From Acidihalobacter prosperus (GTDB taxonomy: Bacteria; Pseudomonadota; Gammaproteobacteria; DSM-5130; Acidihalobacteraceae), in assembly GCF_000754095.2 (NCBI RefSeq), contig NZ_JQSG02000002.1, positions 124,001 through 188,000 of the forward strand: a stretch of DNA of 64,000 nt. Reading direction: 5' to 3'. The notes under the pieces are model-generated. The model was not told the origin of the DNA. It did not search any database and saw nothing but the letters and a program-made list of their open reading frames with translations. A program made the position numbers and the translations under genes. Below, piece after piece: positions 29,184 to 38,160 of the stretch. Position 1 is the first letter of the stretch. Each line of letters opens with the position of its first letter.

Positions 29184-30254
29184 TCAGGCTCGGCGGATCA
29201 GCTCGACGATCTCGGGAAAGCCGCCCACGCGCTCGGCCGCATCGAGCTTGATCGCCTCCTTGGGCATGCCGAACACCACGCAGCTCGCCTCGTCCTGCGC
29301 CATGGTCGTCGCCCCCGCCTCGCGCATCAGCCTCAGGCCGCGCGCGCCGTCCCCGCCCATGCCGGTCATGATGATGCCGACGGCATTGCGGCCGGCCACC
29401 TGCGCAGCCGAGCGGAACAGCACGTCGACCGAAGGCTTGTGGCGATTGACCAGCGGCCCGTCGAACACCTCGGCATAGTATTGCGCACCCTGGCGGGCGA
29501 TCTTCAGGTGCTGCCCACCTGGCGCGATCAGGGCCAGCCCGGGGATCAGACGATCGCCCGATTTGGCCTCGCGAACCTCGATCTGGCACAAGCCGTTGAG
29601 GCGTTCCGCGAAGGCGGCGGTAAACATCGCCGGCATATGCTGGACGATGGCGATGGGTGCGCACACCCTCGGCAAGTCGGTCAGCACGGTTTCAAGCGCC
29701 TGCGTGCCGCCGGTCGAGGTGCCGATGGCCACGATGCGCTCGGTGGTGCGCAGCATCGCCTCGCCGCCAGCGGGGGCTGGCGTTGCCGTCGCCGGCCCGG
29801 CGGGTGCCGGCGCGCGCCTTTGCAGGTTGCCGGGATTCACGCGCGCGGCCGCCTTGACCGCGGCGATCAGGTCGTTGGCGCTGTCGAGCAGAAAATCGCG
29901 GATGCCCACCGTCGGCTTGGTGACCACGTGCACCGCGCCGGCGGCCAGCGCCTGCAGTGTGGTGGCGGCGCCCTTTTCGGTCAGCGTCGAGCAGATGATG
30001 ACCGGCGTGGGCCGCTCGCGCATCAACTGCCCCAGAAAGGTGATGCCGTCCATCCTCGGCATCTCGACGTCGAGCACGATCACGTCGGGCCACTGCCGCT
30101 TCATCCTTTCCTTGGCGAACAACGGGTCGGCGGCGGCGCCGATCACTTCGATCGAGGGATCCGAGGACAAGGCCGACTGCAGGACCTGCCTGACCACGGC
30201 CGAATCGTCGACGACCAACACCTTGATCTTGCCGCCTGCGTCGGATTGCGTCAC
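29184..30254 (-). CDS. cheB: Chemotaxis protein-glutamate methylesterase CheB
   Basis: The 356-residue protein has an N-terminal receiver domain ([14 protein letters not shown]; phosphoacceptor Asp62 in [12 protein letters not shown]), a Pro/Ala-rich linker, and a C-terminal methylesterase domain with nucleophile motif [27 protein letters not shown] and [14 protein letters not shown]. It demethylates and deamidates receptors. It starts at GTG with a GGGGCGG site. It is the last gene of the chemotaxis operon and converges on tamB. Confidence 0.96.
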
Positions 30255-30273: not shown

Positions 30274-30780
30274 TCATGATTTCATGGATTTATACCAGAG
30301 ATAGACCAGGCCGTCGTCAAGGTCCAGCACCAGGCTGCGATGCCCGTCGCCACCCAGATGCTCGGCGGCGACCTTGAACCCGTAAGCCGCCATCAACACC
30401 CGCGCGGCCTCCACATTGCGTGCCGACACGCCCTCCCGTGCGGGACGCGATTTCAGCGCCGGAAACATATTGCCGCCGCCGAAGAGCTTGACCTCGTAAT
30501 CCCTGGGATGCGTGCGCGAGCTGCGTATCCTGGCCATGAACAGATGCATCATCTCGTCGGCATATTTGCCGTCCCATTCGCCGGCAGCCTGGGGCGCGCG
30601 ACGCTGGCCGCGGCACGGCAGCATGAAATGCCCCATGCCGCCGCATCGCAGCTCGGGATGCCAGAGCGTCACCGCGACGCAGGAACCGAGTATGGTCTTG
30701 ATCCGTGTGCCGGCCTTGCCGAAATAGAAACCGCCCGGCGTCAGATACACATCGTATCGCTGCCAGTCCCTGCGGTTCAC
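30274..30780 (-). CDS. cheD: Chemoreceptor glutamine deamidase CheD
   Basis: The 168-residue enzyme has the catalytic Cys/His pair in [13 protein letters not shown] and GGMGHFMLP, and the C-terminal [10 protein letters not shown] and [13 protein letters not shown] motifs. CheD deamidates receptor glutamines and in some species links to CheC; no CheC is present here. GTG start overlaps the cheR stop (GTGA). Confidence 0.95.
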
Positions 30781-31646
30781 GGACGCCGGTAGATCGAGGG
30801 CGCCTCGACGATCAATTCCGATGTCACGCCGTTGAGGCTCTCGGAATGGCCGACGAAGAGATAGCCGCCCGGGCGCAAACGGGCGATCAGGCGGGCAATC
30901 AGCGCCTGCTTGGTCGGCAGATCGAAATAAATCATCACGTTGCGCAGGAAAATGACATCAAAAAGACCCAAGCCCTCCGGCAACTCGGCATTCAGATTGA
31001 GGGTCCGGAATTCCACGCGTTCGCGCAGCTTGCGGGCGACGGCGAACAGGCCTTCCTTGGAACCGGTGCCGCGCAGGCAATAGGCGCGCAGATAGGATCG
31101 CGGGATGCGCTCGGCCCGATCGAGCGGGTAGATGCCGGCCCGCGCCCGCTCCAGCACGCGCTGGCTCAGGTCCGTGGCCAGCACCGACCAGGGTCTCGCG
31201 CCGGCGTGCTCGGCCAGGGTCATGGCGATGCTGTAGGGTTCCTCGCCACTCGAACAGGCCGCACTCCAGATGCGCAACCCCTGCGGCGCGCGGGTCAAGG
31301 TCGGCAGCACATGCTCGACAAGGTAGTCGAAATGTTTCTGCTCACGGAAAAAATAGGTTTCGTTGGTGGTCAGCAGATCGATCGCCCGTTGCGCCTCGGA
31401 ACCCGGGCGCGGGTCGCCGTCCAGCAGTGCGAGATATTCGCGATAGCCCGCACAGCCGAGTTCGCGCAGCCGTTTTTCGAGACGCCCGGCGACCAGTGCG
31501 CGCTTGGCCGTACTCAGGTGTATGCCGGCGCGACGGTAGATGAATTCGCGGATGGCCTGAAACTCGCGATCGCCCAAAGGCACACCGCGGCCGGTGCCGT
31601 TCGCCGCCGCCCCCTTTTGCGGCCTGTCCGCCGTCGCGCTGGCCAT
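30777..31646 (-). CDS. cheR: Chemotaxis protein methyltransferase CheR
   Basis: The 289-residue SAM-dependent enzyme has the CheR N-domain (FIYRRAGIHLSTAKRALVAGRLEKRL), LLTTNETYFFRE, the SAM motif IWSAACSSGEEPYSIAM, and FDVIFLRNVMIYFD. It methylates receptor glutamates. Receptor tethering may use the EFVRF tail of the MCP encoded two genes upstream. Confidence 0.96.
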   Translation of the reverse strand: MASATADRPQKGAAANGTGRGVPLGDREFQAIREFIYRRAGIHLSTAKRALVAGRLEKRLRELGCAGYREYLALLDGDPRPGSEAQRAIDLLTTNETYFFREQKHFDYLVEHVLPTLTRAPQGLRIWSAACSSGEEPYSIAMTLAEHAGARPWSVLATDLSQRVLERARAGIYPLDRAERIPRSYLRAYCLRGTGSKEGLFAVARKLRERVEFRTLNLNAELPEGLGLFDVIFLRNVMIYFDLPTKQALIARLIARLRPGGYLFVGHSESLNGVTSELIVEAPSIYRRP

Positions 31647-31652
31647 TGACGT

Positions 31653-32198
31653 TCAGGACGGCCGCGGCGCGGTCGACATGGCCTCTGCGAGTGCGGACAT
31701 TTCCGTCACCGACAGGGCCTGGTCGATGTCCAACACGACGATGAAGCGACCATCGACCTTGCCGATGCCTTCGATGAAATCGTTGCGCAGCCCGGCACCG
31801 AACGCGGGCGGCCGCTCCTGGCTGCTGGGCTCGATCTCGACCACCTCATTCACAGAATCGACCAGAATGCCCAGATCCTGATGGGTCTGCTGCTTGCTCA
31901 GCTCGATGATGACGATGCAGGTTCGACGGCGGATTTCGGTTGGCGGGCGGCCAAAGCGGACCGCGAGATCGATCACCGGCACCACGCGTCCGCGCAGATT
32001 GATCACGCCGCGCAGGAAGGCCGGCATCATCGGTACTGTGGTCACGGCCTCGTATTCGATGATTTCGCGAATGTGCGTGATATTGACCGCGAAGGTTTCC
32101 TCGCCCAGCGTAAAGCTCAGGTACTGCCCGGCCTGATCGGATGCCTCGCCCGTGACCGGCTCGCGCTCCGCGTCCGAAATCTCCAGTTGATTGGCCAT
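31653..32198 (-). CDS. cheW: Chemotaxis coupling protein CheW
   Basis: The 181-residue protein has an N-terminal extension of about 25 acidic residues and a CheW domain: YLSFTLGEETFAVNITHIREI, GVINLRGRVVPVIDL and LGILVDSVNEVVEI. It bridges receptors and CheA at the membrane. It sits between the MCP and cheR. Confidence 0.95.
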   Translation of the reverse strand: MANQLEISDAEREPVTGEASDQAGQYLSFTLGEETFAVNITHIREIIEYEAVTTVPMMPAFLRGVINLRGRVVPVIDLAVRFGRPPTEIRRRTCIVIIELSKQQTHQDLGILVDSVNEVVEIEPSSQERPPAFGAGLRNDFIEGIGKVDGRFIVVLDIDQALSVTEMSALAEAMSTAPRPS

Positions 32199-32209: not shown

Positions 32210-33859
32210 TCAGAACCGCACGAATTCGCCTTCATCCGGCAGCTCACTCTCCTTGCGGCTGTCCGGCGCGGCCCGCTTGAACTCCTGCGGCGTTCTGTCG
32301 ACCTTGAGGCGATGCTTGGCCTGGGTGGCTGACCCAGCCTGCTGGAACGAGCGCTGCGCACGCAGCTTGAACACCGACATGATCTGCTGGAGCTGCTCCG
32401 CCTGGCTGTTGAGTTCTTCCGCCGTCGCAGCCAGCTCCTCGGAGGCCGAGGCATTCTGCTGCGTCGCCTGGCTGAGCTGGTTCATCGCCACGTTGATCTG
32501 GCCGACGCCACTGCTCTGCTCGTCCGACGCGGCGGCGATTTCCTGCACCAGATCGGAAGTCTTGCGCACACCCGGCACGATCTCTCCCAGCAGCTGCCCT
32601 GCGCGCTCGGCCAGACCCACGCTGCTGCTGGCAAGCTGGCCGATCTCCTGCGCCGCCACCTGGCTGCGCTCGGCCAGCTTGCGCACTTCGGCCGCGACCA
32701 CCGCAAAACCCTTGCCGTGTTCGCCGGCACGCGCGGCTTCGATGGCCGCATTGAGCGCCAGCAGATTGGTCTGGTAGGCGATGTCGTCGACGATGCCGAT
32801 CTTGTCCGCGATGTCCTTCATGGCGCGCACGGTCTGCTCGACGGCCTGCCCGCCTTCGGTCGCCTTGCTGGCGGCCTCGCCGGCCATGCCGTCGGTAATC
32901 TTCGCGTTCTCGGCGTTCTGGGTGACCGACGCGCCCATTTCCTCCATGGAAGCGGTGGTTTCCTCGACGCTCGCCGCCTGCTCCGTCGATGCCTGGGAAA
33001 CCGACTGCGCGGTCGCACTGACCTCTTCCGAAGCGCTGGACAGCGAATCGGCGGCGCTGCGCACCTCCGCGATCACACCCGCCAGGTTTTCCGCCATGGT
33101 GCGCATCGCCGCCAGCAGGCGCCCGGTTTCGTCGCGCGATACCGCATCGATGGTCACGCTCAGGTCGTTGTTCGCCAGACTGTTCGCGACGTCCACCGCC
33201 TCGGCGATCGGGCGGGTGATGCTGCGCGTGGTCAGCCACGCGAAACCGACGCCCAGCAGCAAGCCAACGACAATGACGCTGATGGCCAGCGTGCGCGATT
33301 CGCTATAAACCGCATTGGCCTGCGCGTAGGAATTATCGAGATGCTGCTGCTGCAACGCAGTCAACTGATTGAGGCTGACGCGCAGTGTGTCGACCACGGG
33401 CAGCCCTCGTGCCGAAAAACTGGCAGCGGCCTGGGCCGCATTTCCCGCCTTCAGCTGCTGATGGGCTTCGTCCTTGATGCCCTTGAGCTTGTCGAGCGCC
33501 TGACTGATTTCACCCAGCCCGGCACGGCCCTGAGAGGAGGTCAGCAAGCCGTTCAGCTGTTCCAGGCGCTTGCCGATCTGGGTTTCGTGGTCATGGATGC
33601 GCGAGGCCAGCTGCTCGCGCTGGGCGGCATTGCTGGTCAGCATCATGCCCTGGAAATCGGCTTCGTCCTCCAGGATTTCGTCCTTGATCTGCATCACCAG
33701 CTTGGCCTTGACCCAATCGCGCTGGACGATCCGGTCCGTGCCCTGCTTGATCATCGACATCTCGTGCACGCCCATGCCCGCCACGATCACGAGCAAGGCC
33801 AGCAAGACGCCGAACCCGATGCCCAGACGGACACCTATTTTCAAATTTCTGAAAGACAT
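32210..33859 (-). CDS. Methyl-accepting chemotaxis protein with four-helix-bundle sensor
   Basis: The 549-residue receptor has TM1 (about 10-30, [20 protein letters not shown]), a periplasmic four-helix-bundle domain (about 33-188), TM2 (about 190-210), HAMP ([20 protein letters not shown]) and a cytoplasmic hairpin with [19 protein letters not shown]. The C-terminal residues EFVRF fit the CheR/CheB-binding pentapeptide pattern x-aromatic-x-x-aromatic. Ligand unknown. It is encoded between cheA and cheW. Confidence 0.95.
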
Positions 33860-33934: not shown

Positions 33935-36205
33935 TCAGCCGCCTGCAGGTTCGCCCTCCGTTGCCGATACGCGCGGCAGACCCGGCGCCCCCTCACGCAG
34001 GGCCGCAAGCTGGCTCAGACCCACCGCGTCGAAAATCAGCGCCAGCTCGCCGCTGCCGAGAATCGTCGAACCGCTGATGCCCTTGAGATGTGCGAAGAGG
34101 TCGCCGAGCGGCTTGATGACCGTCTGCAGCTCGCCGAGGAGATCGTCCACCACCAGCCCGAAGCGCCGCCCGCCGGCCTGCACCACGACCAGGCTCTCGC
34201 GCCCCTGTGCGCGCGACGTCAAGCCGAAGAAATCGGCTATGCGCAGATAGGGAATCACCTCGTCACGGACTTGCACGTAGGCACCGTGCGCGGACCGCTG
34301 CTCGACGCGGTCGAAGTCGATGCATTCAACCACCATGTCCAGCGGCAGCACGAATTTCGATTCGCCGACGCCCAGCAAAAACCCGTCGATGATGGCGAGC
34401 GTCAGCGGCAGGCGCAGGCGCACGGAGGTGCCACGCCCCGGCATGCTGTCGATGTCGATGCTTCCGCGCAGCCCTTCGATGGTCTTCTTGACCACATCCA
34501 TGCCGACGCCGCGCCCGGACAGGTTGCTGACCTGTTCCGCCGTGGAAAAGCCCGGCTCGAAGATCAGTTGATACAGGGCATGCGTGGATAACTGATCCTC
34601 TTCGCCGATCAGGCCGCGACCGATCGCCTTGTTGCGGATGCGCTCGGGGTCAAGCCCGGCACCGTCGTCGCCAACCTCGATCACCACGCTGCCCGAATCG
34701 TGGAAGGCCGCCAGCCGGATCGTCCCCTTGCCGCTCTTGCCTCGCGCCATCCGCACGTCCGGCATTTCGATGCCATGGTCGATGGCATTGCGCACCATGT
34801 GGGTCAGGGGATCGGCGAGTTTCTCCACCATCGTGCGGTCGAGCTCGGTCTCGCCACCCTCAACTTGCAGGGTCACCTCCTTACCGAGTTCGCGCGCGGT
34901 GTCGCGCACGATGCGGTGGAAGCGCGCGAAGGTCTCGCCGATCTCGACCATGCGCAGCCGCAAGGTGCCTTCGCGGATCAGCTCGACGAGCCGTCCGACC
35001 TCGATCGACGCCTCCTGCTGCGGCGCATCGGGATTGGCCGCGCCCAGGGTGCGCATCGCGGAACTCGCGATCACCAGCTCTCCGACCAGGTCGATGAGGG
35101 CATCCAGCTTGTCGGCCTGCACCCTGACCGACTGCGTGTCACGCGCCTTCACTTCCTTGATCTTGTTCTGCTTTTCAAGAGCGGCCTTGACGATCGGGGA
35201 CTGGACCGCGCCTTGCTCCACCAGGATGTGACCCAGGGGCTCGGGATTTTCGGCCTTCGCCTGCGCGGCCAGGGCCTCGGTGAGTTCGCGCTGCGTGACC
35301 GTGCCGACCTTCACCAGGATCTCGCCAAGCCGGAGATCGTCCTCCGGCAGGGACTGGATCAGCGCCAGAAACTCTTCCGCCTTGCTGGCCATCGGCAGGA
35401 TGCGGAGTTCGCAGTCCTCCCTGACGAACTCGAACACATCCTCCAGGGTCTGCTTGCTGACGTCGCCGCGAAAATGGATCTCGAAACCCATGTAGCAGCA
35501 CTCGGGATCGTAATCGACCTCCGGTATCCGCTCGGGCAGCAGTTCGACGCCCACCAGCTGCCCCAGCGACTTCAGATAGCGCACGAAGGACAGCGGGTCC
35601 ATGCCGTTGCGGAAGGTGTCTTCGCCGAAACGCAGGGACAAATGCCAGCCTTCCGCCTCGGGTGGCCGGGTCCACGATTGAATCGCCGACTCGACCGCAT
35701 CCCCGGCCGAAATCAGCTTCTGCCCGTTGGACGAGCCTTGCGGCTCGGGCTTGTCGGCAGCGGGCCGGTCTGCCGGAGCGGGCGGCCTGCCGGCAACGGC
35801 ATCCACCGACTCGCCGCCTCGCAGGGCGACGATCAGCGCCCGCCCCTGCGCCTGCTGCGCGTCGTCGAGCGGGCGCGACTCCGCGGCACAGTCCACGAGC
35901 GTGCCGAGGTGATCGGTACACTGGATCAGCAGGCTGACCCACGGTGGCGCGAGTTCGAGCGCACCGTCCCGTGCGCGATCGAGCACGCTTTCCATTTCGT
36001 GGCCGAAGGCGACGACGTCGTCGAGCCCAAACAGACCGGCAGAGCCCTTGACCGTGTGCGCCGCGCGAAACAGGGCATTGACGTCCTCGGGGTCCGCTTC
36101 GGCCTCCTCCAGCCGCAGCAGGATCGACTCCATCTGCAGCAGCAGTTCGTGCGCCTCCTCGAGAAAGGTGCCCAACGCGCCGCTCATGTCGAACCCGTCG
36201 CTCAT
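33935..36205 (-). CDS. cheA: Chemotaxis histidine kinase CheA with an MshEN-like insert
   Basis: The 756-residue kinase contains an HPt domain with phospho-His50 (RAAHTVKGSAG), a Pro-rich linker (about 135-160) and a P2-like segment (about 187-272). Next come two tandem RLGxxL-type 24-residue motifs (292-315 and 323-346), then the dimerisation helices (357-425). The ATPase domain has the N-box HMVRNAIDHGIE, DDGAGLD and GRGVGMD; a CheW-like domain follows (about 600-735). The 24-residue motifs are characteristic of MshEN c-di-GMP-binding domains and are not a standard part of CheA. ATG 36205 follows GGGGGG and overlaps the STAS gene stop (ATGA). Confidence 0.96.
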   Translation of the reverse strand: MSDGFDMSGALGTFLEEAHELLLQMESILLRLEEAEADPEDVNALFRAAHTVKGSAGLFGLDDVVAFGHEMESVLDRARDGALELAPPWVSLLIQCTDHLGTLVDCAAESRPLDDAQQAQGRALIVALRGGESVDAVAGRPPAPADRPAADKPEPQGSSNGQKLISAGDAVESAIQSWTRPPEAEGWHLSLRFGEDTFRNGMDPLSFVRYLKSLGQLVGVELLPERIPEVDYDPECCYMGFEIHFRGDVSKQTLEDVFEFVREDCELRILPMASKAEEFLALIQSLPEDDLRLGEILVKVGTVTQRELTEALAAQAKAENPEPLGHILVEQGAVQSPIVKAALEKQNKIKEVKARDTQSVRVQADKLDALIDLVGELVIASSAMRTLGAANPDAPQQEASIEVGRLVELIREGTLRLRMVEIGETFARFHRIVRDTARELGKEVTLQVEGGETELDRTMVEKLADPLTHMVRNAIDHGIEMPDVRMARGKSGKGTIRLAAFHDSGSVVIEVGDDGAGLDPERIRNKAIGRGLIGEEDQLSTHALYQLIFEPGFSTAEQVSNLSGRGVGMDVVKKTIEGLRGSIDIDSMPGRGTSVRLRLPLTLAIIDGFLLGVGESKFVLPLDMVVECIDFDRVEQRSAHGAYVQVRDEVIPYLRIADFFGLTSRAQGRESLVVVQAGGRRFGLVVDDLLGELQTVIKPLGDLFAHLKGISGSTILGSGELALIFDAVGLSQLAALREGAPGLPRVSATEGEPAGG

Positions 36206-36531
36206 CGCTTGCCCCCCTTCGGGCGAATCACCAGCGGATCGCCGAAGAAACGTTCGAGCTGGCAGAGCTCGAGTGCCTCGATGACGCACGCACTGTGCTG
36301 CGCCAGGTGTAGAGCCTTGCCGTCATGCGCCGCCGCGCGCTTGCCCGCCATCAGCAACTGCAGCCCGGCGCCGTCGATGTTGTCCACGCCGGACAGATCC
36401 AGCACCAAACTGGCGCTCTGTTGCAGCGCCTCCGCGACACGCGCATGCACCTCGGCAACCGAGTAAATGTCCAGATCGCCGCCCAGCGCCAGCTGCAAGC
36501 CTTCTCCGGTTTCGCTTTCGACGATATCCAT
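36202..36531 (-). CDS. STAS-domain protein (anti-sigma-factor-antagonist-like)
   Basis: The 109-residue single STAS domain has LQLALGGDLDIYSVAEVHARV at the start and the conserved serine-region equivalent VLDLSGVDNIDGAGLQLLMAG. The usual phosphorylatable Ser in D-S-(S/T)-G is replaced by Asp-Gly-Ala-Gly (NIDGAGL). It is coupled to cheA by ATGA. STAS proteins occur in several environmental chemotaxis operons; the role is not established. Confidence 0.88.
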   Translation of the reverse strand: MDIVESETGEGLQLALGGDLDIYSVAEVHARVAEALQQSASLVLDLSGVDNIDGAGLQLLMAGKRAAAHDGKALHLAQHSACVIEALELCQLERFFGDPLVIRPKGGKR

Positions 36532-36558: not shown

Positions 36559-36927
36559 TCAGGGTCCGACCAGCTTGGACACCGCGGCCAGCATCTGCGC
36601 GGGCTGGAAGGGCTTGACCATCCAGGCCTTGGCGCCGGCCGCACGTCCCTCCTCCTTTTTCGAATCCTGGCCTTCGGTGGTCAGCATGATCACCGGTACG
36701 AAGCGGTATTCGGGCCTTTGTTTGAGCTGTTTGACGAAGGTGATGCCGTCCATTCGCGGCATGTTCACGTCGCTGATGACCAGCTGCACCTTCTTGCCCT
36801 CCAGCCGGGTCAGCGCTTCCTGCCCGTCGCCCGCCTCCATCACCTCGTATCCGGCCCCCGTCAGCGCCATTTTCACGACCTGACGCAAGGAGGCGGAGTC
36901 GTCCACAATCATCACCGTCTTAGGCAT
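36559..36927 (-). CDS. cheY: Chemotaxis response regulator CheY
   Basis: The 122-residue stand-alone receiver domain has acidic pocket D9/D10 (VMIVDDSASLRQ), phosphoacceptor D53 (LVISDVNMPRMDG), T83/T84 (IMLTTEGQ) and K105 (VKPFQP). The FVKQLKQRPEYRFVPVIMLT pattern is of the cheA-operon CheY type. It probably switches the flagellar motor, but a second CheY elsewhere cannot be excluded. Confidence 0.92.
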   Translation of the reverse strand: MPKTVMIVDDSASLRQVVKMALTGAGYEVMEAGDGQEALTRLEGKKVQLVISDVNMPRMDGITFVKQLKQRPEYRFVPVIMLTTEGQDSKKEEGRAAGAKAWMVKPFQPAQMLAAVSKLVGP

Positions 36928-36984: not shown

Positions 36985-38160
36985 TCAGAAAAAGGTCACG
37001 TCGCCCGTATTCGACTGCGAACCCTGCTCGCCGCGGTGATTGCGGCGCTGCTCGTCGGTGGTGTAGCTGCGCTCCACCTCGGACAACCATTGTTCGATCA
37101 CCTCGCGCACGTCGACAGCGCCCGCGCCATGATGCCGATCGAGCAGTTCACCCAGGCTGTTCAGGCTCGATTCGGCGTGATCGAGTATCTGGCTCACGCG
37201 ATCCTGGAACTGCAGCGAGACCAGCATCTGCGCGACGTCCATGCGGATACCGTCGTTTTCGCGGTGGACCACTTCGGCGGACGTTCGCGTGTTTTCGGCG
37301 AAACGGCGGAAACGGTCGAGCACCGCATTGACCGCGGCGTCCGCGGCTTCCATCGCCTGGCGGTCGGCCTCGCCCGAGGTGCTGGCCGAGCTGCCGATTT
37401 GCCCGAGCGAGTCGGTGATGCTTTGAATCTTCTCGGCCATCCGGCGCACGGTATCGGTCGACAGGCCGGACAGTTTGCGCACCTCCTCGGCGACGACGGC
37501 GAAACCGCGCCCCTGCTCGCCGGCACGCGCCGCCTCGATGGCCGCGTTCAATGCCAGCAGATTGGTACGCGAGGCGATGACCTCCACCTCGCCGGTCATG
37601 CTGCGCAACGCCTCCGCATAGGCATCCAGCCCCTCCAGTGCCTGCGCCAGCGTGCGCCGGCGCCGCCCGGTCTCGTCGAGCGTGCTCAGCACCGACTTGA
37701 GATCGGATTCGTTACGCGCGAAATCGTCGGACGCGTCCGCACCCGAGCCGTTCGATTCCGCGCCAACGATCGAAGCGGCGGTCTGCACCGCCTGATCCAG
37801 GCGTTCCTGCAGGCTGTCGAATTGCCCGACCAGGGCATTGATGCCCTCCTCGGTCTGGAGCTTCGCCGTGTCGATTTGACGGGCCAGTATCTGCAGCGCC
37901 TGTGCGATGGCCAGAGTATCGGACTCCTGGCCGCTGACGAGATGTTCGCCGCCTGCGGAGGTCGCTGCGGCCGGCGTCGTCGGCATCGATGCCGGAACCT
38001 CGGCGCGCGCACGCCAGATCCAGGCCAACACCAGCAAGGCTGCCAACGTCAGTGCCAGCGCGCGGGGCTGTCCCCAAATCGACAGCGCCACGATCGAGAC
38101 ACTCCACGGTATGGCCGCGCCCGCGGCCCACATCCGACCAGCCAGTGTATTGCTCGTCAT
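36985..38160 (-). CDS. Short MCP-like chemotaxis signalling protein without a sensor domain
   Basis: The 391-residue protein has two closely spaced N-terminal hydrophobic segments (about 14-50) but no sizeable periplasmic domain and no obvious HAMP. A cytoplasmic coiled coil carries the MCP hairpin [20 protein letters not shown] and [15 protein letters not shown]. It then continues into [19 protein letters not shown] and a hydrophobic C-terminal tail TGDVTFF. It heads the chemotaxis operon. The tail differs from the receptor pentapeptide and may mark a distinct partner. Confidence 0.85.

Follow-up and report, generated by a model that had tools for sequence, protein, structure and literature searches.

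Whether a cell swims or settles is a choice that c-di-GMP and chemotaxis make jointly. To our knowledge, the links so far described between the two involve the receptors, adaptors of CheR, or the motor. In Azorhizobium, c-di-GMP acts on a chemotaxis component through the PilZ chemoreceptor Cbp1 (PMC6454048), and the adaptor MapZ provides a c-di-GMP input by acting on a methyltransferase of chemotaxis (Xu et al. 2016, as cited in PMC12564702; PMC6370697). Cbp1 and MapZ rely on PilZ domains and work at the level of the receptor or of methylation, whereas the module described here is placed at the level of the kinase.

The closest described relatives of this module are MshEN domains. According to Wang et al. 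2016 (PMC5013675), Vibrio cholerae MshE carries Arg1 in each of its two motifs, which are separated by a 5-residue spacer; Gly3 makes backbone hydrogen bonds to the guanine, Gln24 interacts with the ribose and phosphate, and isolated MshEN_N binds c-di-GMP at 0.35 μM, slightly tighter than the full domain. Among the domains of Thermus thermophilus PilF, GSPII-C deviates from the consensus only in having Pro1 in motif II and binds c-di-GMP with a KD similar to that of MshEN, about 500 nM, while GSPII-B lacks both arginines and yet binds it at 6 nM (PMC11731258). The module is also found on an enzyme that is not an ATPase, the c-di-GMP-controlled glycosyltransferase NfrB of E. coli, where it has been proposed to act as an allosteric switch; the same study lists chemotaxis proteins among the mostly uncharacterised carriers of MshEN (PMC8669469). 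Wang et al. 2016 had already associated MshEN with a 'chemotaxis protein kinase CheA', the same pairing as seen here, though in the available text this is a mention and no functional test of the CheA is reported (PMC5013675). The pairing has been on record since 2016, and the CheA described below is a further instance. In the open-access literature searched, we found no experiment on an MshEN-CheA.

The gene lies in the window, by which we mean the whole 64,000-nucleotide stretch of DNA that was analysed, within a cluster in the order MCP-like, CheY, STAS, CheA, MCP, CheW, CheR, CheD, CheB.

36985..38160, minus strand: short MCP-type signalling protein (PF00015, E 1.6e-22)
36559..36927, minus strand: CheY-like single receiver (PF00072, E 6.9e-29)
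36202..36531, minus strand: STAS-domain protein (PF13466, E 7.5e-16), overlapping the start of cheA (ATGA)
33935..36205, minus strand: cheA with an inserted MshEN_N module, 756 aa, ATGA overlap with the STAS stop
32210..33859, minus strand: MCP with a 4HB sensory domain (PF00015, PF12729)
31653..32198, minus strand: CheW (PF01584, E 2.3e-41)
30777..31646, minus strand: CheR (PF01739, E 1.6e-57)
30274..30780, minus strand: CheD (PF03975, E 1.9e-20)
29184..30254, minus strand: CheB (PF01339, E 9.2e-63)

The gene set recurs in 44 full-length homologous loci, with CheY present in 43, CheW in 42, STAS in 36 and CheD in 29. Since the flagellar che operon is located elsewhere in the genome, where a CheA is accompanied by CheZ, CheY, a sigma-70-family factor, a ParA/MinD-type ATPase, an SRP54-type GTPase and an FHIPEP/FlhA-family protein, the cluster in the window represents a second chemosensory system. 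Neither a genome search with the MshE-related profile NF053729 nor the tree described below revealed an insert in the flagellar CheA. A third P3 match in the genome is weak and falls within a frame of 1811 aa.

The cheA reading frame starts with an ATG at 36205. Its domains are given below; the P0001 numbering refers to the CheA with one extra leading residue, so that each number is one higher than in the protein itself.

35906..36175, minus strand: Hpt (P1) domain (PF01627, E 1.3e-18; P0001 residues 12-101)
35399..35653, minus strand: domain at the P2 position, predicted to be ferredoxin-like (AlphaFold pLDDT 83)
35261..35332, minus strand: MshEN motif I, RLGEILVKVGTVTQRELTEALAAQ (CheA residues 292-315; NF053729)
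35240..35260, minus strand: spacer AKAENPE, 7 residues (CheA residues 316-322)
35168..35239, minus strand: MshEN motif II, PLGHILVEQGAVQSPIVKAALEKQ (CheA residues 323-346; NF053729)
34997..35134, minus strand: P3 dimerisation domain (PF02895, E 3.4e-9; P0001 residues 359-404)
34400..34813, minus strand: P4 ATP-binding kinase domain (PF02518, E 7.3e-20)
34013..34384, minus strand: P5 CheW-like domain (PF01584, E 1e-23)

The Pfam matches to Hpt, P3, the P4 ATPase and the CheW-like P5 follow one another in this order, and the Hpt contains the motif HTVKGSAG with the phospho-accepting histidine, the predicted substrate site of the kinase. The insert is placed between the P2 position and P3, directly ahead of the dimerisation domain. 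The domain at the P2 position gave no Pfam match and was not identified by a profile search against the PDB. Its model matches many ferredoxin-like folds, including P2 of T. maritima CheA (1u0s_A, Z 7.1), and this common fold is consistent with P2, though unspecific.

The original prediction had placed two 24-residue motifs with a 7-residue spacer at 35168-35332, and this position is exact to the base; the residues it had named, Gly10, Leu or Val at 17, Leu21, Gln24 and Pro1 of motif II, are all present. Both motifs have Leu2, Gly3, hydrophobic residues at 17 and 21 and Gln24, position 17 of motif II being valine. Arg1 is found only in motif I; with Pro1 in its place motif II is without the stacking arginine. 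The profile NF053729 ('cyclic di-GMP-binding domain-containing protein, MshE-related', short name 'c-di-GMP_motif, MshE-related') matches the whole CheA with 41.0 bits (curated cut-off 38, E 1.2e-10), all 53 positions being aligned to P0001 residues 293-347, and the segment alone with 45.8 bits. The tandem motif did not appear in any of 200,000 shuffles of the CheA, a single motif appearing in 54, and nowhere else in the 3.36-Mb genome does NF053729 score above its cut-off. This score, the shuffles and the uniqueness of the site together exclude chance. A phmmer search with the segment retrieved Thermus PilF (E 4.6e-8) and PilB (1.7e-4), and a profile search against the PDB gave PilF (E 1.8e-20), PilB (6e-9) and MshE (1e-6), with GSPII-C of PilF aligned best. 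A further hit of the segment was to part of the NfrB family models.

A profile match to MshEN had also been anticipated, and here the outcome was divided: NF053729 matches above its cut-off, but the Pfam MshEN family PF05157 gave no match to the CheA. The reason for this may be seen at C6:111139-111546 of the same genome (minus strand), where a single frame is matched by PF05157 at 111139-111378 and by NF053729, below its cut-off, at the adjoining N-terminal stretch 111406-111546. Because the two stretches adjoin without overlap, PF05157 seems to model the sub-domain that follows the tandem motif. P3 starts directly after the motif pair (P0001 residue 359), and the CheA therefore has the MshEN_N half only; the miss is probably due to the absence of the part that PF05157 models and would seem to be no test of the motif pair itself. 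Surveys by Pfam alone would overlook MshEN_N-only proteins of this kind.

An MshEN fold, as had been proposed for the insert, was obtained by structure prediction: the segment is predicted to form a four-helix bundle like those of c-di-GMP-bound MshE and PilF-GSPIIB. The AlphaFold2 model, based on an alignment of 76 rows, has a pLDDT of 85, and its helices at 29-36, 41-53, 60-66 and 72-94 of the modelled segment follow the plan of MshEN_N. Only six chains exceeded a Foldseek probability of 0.25; these are of c-di-GMP-bound MshE and PilF-GSPIIB, with probabilities of 1.00 and rmsd values of 1.0-1.9 Å, the E values (0.15-0.4) being weak because the domain is small. In the VIA comparison the first 10 entries were all GSPII/MshEN domains, with Z scores of 6.3-8.8 over 56-63 residues. 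Taken by themselves, such scores would be unremarkable when the fold is a helical bundle; here, however, fold and sequence agree. The match to MshE itself (5HTL; Z 8.8, 2.0 Å over 59 residues) goes with the shared pattern of two tandem 24-residue motifs bearing Gly3, the residues at 17 and 21, and Gln24. The CheA module differs from MshE in having Pro1 rather than arginine and Val17 rather than leucine in motif II, a spacer of 7 rather than 5 residues, no MshEN_C half and, as its host, a CheA in place of a pilus ATPase. In the prediction the last helix, on which Val17, Leu21 and Gln24 of motif II lie, reaches P0001 residue 359, the start of P3. Since the model is of the module alone and its confidence drops to ~62 at this C-terminal end, coupling of the helix to P3 is a suggestion only.

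Homologues were collected by a scan of named genomes with patterns taken from P3. The best 80 loci all align across the insert, but they were ranked on the whole query and so the list favours carriers. These are mostly beta- and gammaproteobacteria, with two Actinoplanes and one spirochaete, and NF053729 matches all 76 of the aligned homologue segments. In a set of 70 CheA sequences with less than 80% mutual identity, Gly3 and Gln24 of both motifs and Leu21 of motif I are conserved in every sequence and Arg1 of motif I in 83%. Position 1 of motif II is proline in 46 of the 70, Gly10 of motif II is frequently replaced, and the spacers of the homologues range from 6 to 20 residues. The twelve contact positions have a mean of 3.70 bits compared with 2.52 at the other 36 (permutation p ~2e-4). 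All of these figures on the conservation of contacts are biased upward because the sequences were collected by similarity over the whole segment. Conservation of ligand contacts is in itself no proof of which nucleotide binds.

Taken with the profile match and the matches to solved c-di-GMP receptors, the invariance of contact residues in the 70 homologues supports the proposal that the kinase may sense c-di-GMP directly, and the many GGDEF and EAL proteins of the genome are in keeping with it. By homology, the insert very probably binds c-di-GMP. Anatomy and position make it likely that the ligand also controls the output of the kinase, and a little more so if binding is granted. We therefore favour a direct c-di-GMP input to the second chemosensory system through an MshEN_N module ahead of P3, to which we would give a probability of roughly 0.7. 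The module would consist of the two MshE motifs, folded as a four-helix bundle but lacking the C-terminal half of the full MshEN, and would hold one c-di-GMP, half of it by each motif. The helix of motif II (17, Leu21, Gln24) is predicted to continue to about residue 359, at the start of P3. Once the ligand is bound, the bundle would become closed and more rigid beside the dimer interface. This would alter the freedom of P1 and P2 relative to P4, and this freedom would in turn set the autophosphorylation of CheA or the transfer to the CheY and CheB of the cluster, such that c-di-GMP tunes the second chemosensory array. If this is true, a c-di-GMP receptor in CheA places the messenger at the central kinase, downstream of all the receptors of the array, and the messenger of the swim-or-settle choice acts directly on the sensory machinery. 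Direct testing is feasible, as the homologues include cultured hosts such as Dechloromonas, Thiomonas, Methylobacter and Shewanella.

It is much less likely, though it is the best of the alternatives, that the module binds c-di-GMP mainly for placing or assembling the array, for example at a pole or by recruiting a partner, with the activity of the kinase unchanged. There are precedents for such a role: the N-terminal domain of Xanthomonas citri PilB, which has the MshEN fold (7lko, among the fold matches), is a docking site for PilZ, and in P. aeruginosa CheA brings Pch, a phosphodiesterase of c-di-GMP, to the cell pole (PMC10212136). However, the position right before P3, with a predicted connecting helix, suits allostery of the kinase, and mutants in the MshEN and glycosyltransferase domains of E. 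coli NfrB behave as would be expected if c-di-GMP activated the attached enzyme allosterically (PMC8669469). In NfrB the module is terminal and sits on a membrane glycosyltransferase.

The original prediction had itself raised the doubt that Pro1 of motif II and the longer spacer might alter or abolish binding. Together with the lack of a Pfam MshEN match, these features would suit a degenerate MshEN that serves as a non-binding spacer or as a domain for protein interaction. XpsE of Xanthomonas shows that such a loss occurs (PMC5013675). The doubt is largely answered by PilF, whose residues 293-360, the best profile match in the PDB, read RLGEVLVQEGKLSREALKEALEVQ-KGLPRAK-PLGEILVELGLARPEDVEEALQKQ and thus have a 7-residue spacer and Pro1 in motif II. 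As GSPII-C has the identical Pro1 and spacer and binds c-di-GMP (PMC11731258), neither feature seems a ground to expect that binding is lost, and the MshE arrangement of two arginines and a 5-residue spacer is not a strict requirement. GSPII-C belongs to an assembly ATPase, possesses a third motif and extends further at its C-terminal end. XpsE, on the other hand, no longer has residues of the Gly3, Leu and Gln positions (G11V, R38G, G40L, L54H, L58C and Q61V; PMC5013675), whereas the CheA keeps Gly3, Gln24 and the hydrophobic residues at 17 and 21 in both motifs, Gly3 and Gln24 being those that are invariant among the 70 homologues. Moreover, CheAs that are without the motifs have lost or scrambled the whole module, which is what would be expected if selection is for ligand binding. 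A degenerate module therefore appears improbable, more so than one that places the array.

That the module prefers another cyclic dinucleotide over c-di-GMP is hardly credible: the contacts in MshE are for the most part hydrophobic or made with guanine at its Hoogsteen edge (PMC5013675), which might allow it, but the MshEN of NfrB selects c-di-GMP over other nucleotides (PMC8669469), GSPII-C binds c-di-GMP (PMC11731258) and the genome contains 47 GGDEF and 30 EAL matches. For a genome of 3.36 Mb this is a dense c-di-GMP network.

The module is shared by a large CheA clade. The original prediction had suggested a survey of CheA homologues for the insert and of their genomes for GGDEF/EAL proteins; GGDEF was found in 30 of 30 surveyed carrier genomes, with 12-70 matches each (29 carriers of the class sample and one congener, carriers only being counted). 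Among 370 genomes sampled from the class, about 30 encode an insert-bearing CheA (E <1e-18), and 21 of 299 do so in the sample of the phylum at E 1e-14, some by a partial match only. Some genomes have two or more MshEN-CheA genes, as for L040 and L041 in one Propionivibrio genome, and also in G371, G213 and G227.

In a FastTree tree of the P3-P5 cores nearly all carriers fall into one clade, the sampling being uneven and the topology read without support values. Scattered inside this clade are CheAs without the module or with decayed copies, e.g. L150, L151 and L144; the module is mostly deleted in L150 and scrambled in L151, L159 and L144. These four would be natural losses and potential comparison strains. 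Two carriers, L142 and L145, lie outside the main clade among other CheAs. L145 (1-2361) is a CheA beside the flagellar CheA in the tree, with an MshEN-like pair between P1 and P3 and no space for a P2, and is apparently a separate fusion event. L142 (415-2616) has the module in a CheA that groups with insert-free CheAs, and is possibly a second independent gain. The pattern suggests that the module was acquired long ago and retained because of its ligand, that it was lost now and then, and that perhaps two more fusions took place. We would give about even odds to the broader view that MshEN is ancestral and functional throughout this clade of CheAs, which spans beta- and gammaproteobacteria with members in Actinoplanes and a spirochaete. 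In that case c-di-GMP would gate this chemosensory class directly at its kinase, and other branches of the CheA tree would have gained the fusion independently.

Two further families touch on the module. DUF4388 was considered as its identity, but in the CheA of the window the match (E 0.013) covers motif II only and was judged a distant echo; partial matches occur in 43 of the 76 homologue modules (best E 3.6e-4). The model of the EpsG exopolysaccharide tyrosine kinase, TIGR03029, matches 21 of the 76 modules, for the CheA of the window at its N-terminus. The EpsG and DUF4388 families may contain MshEN-like half motifs.
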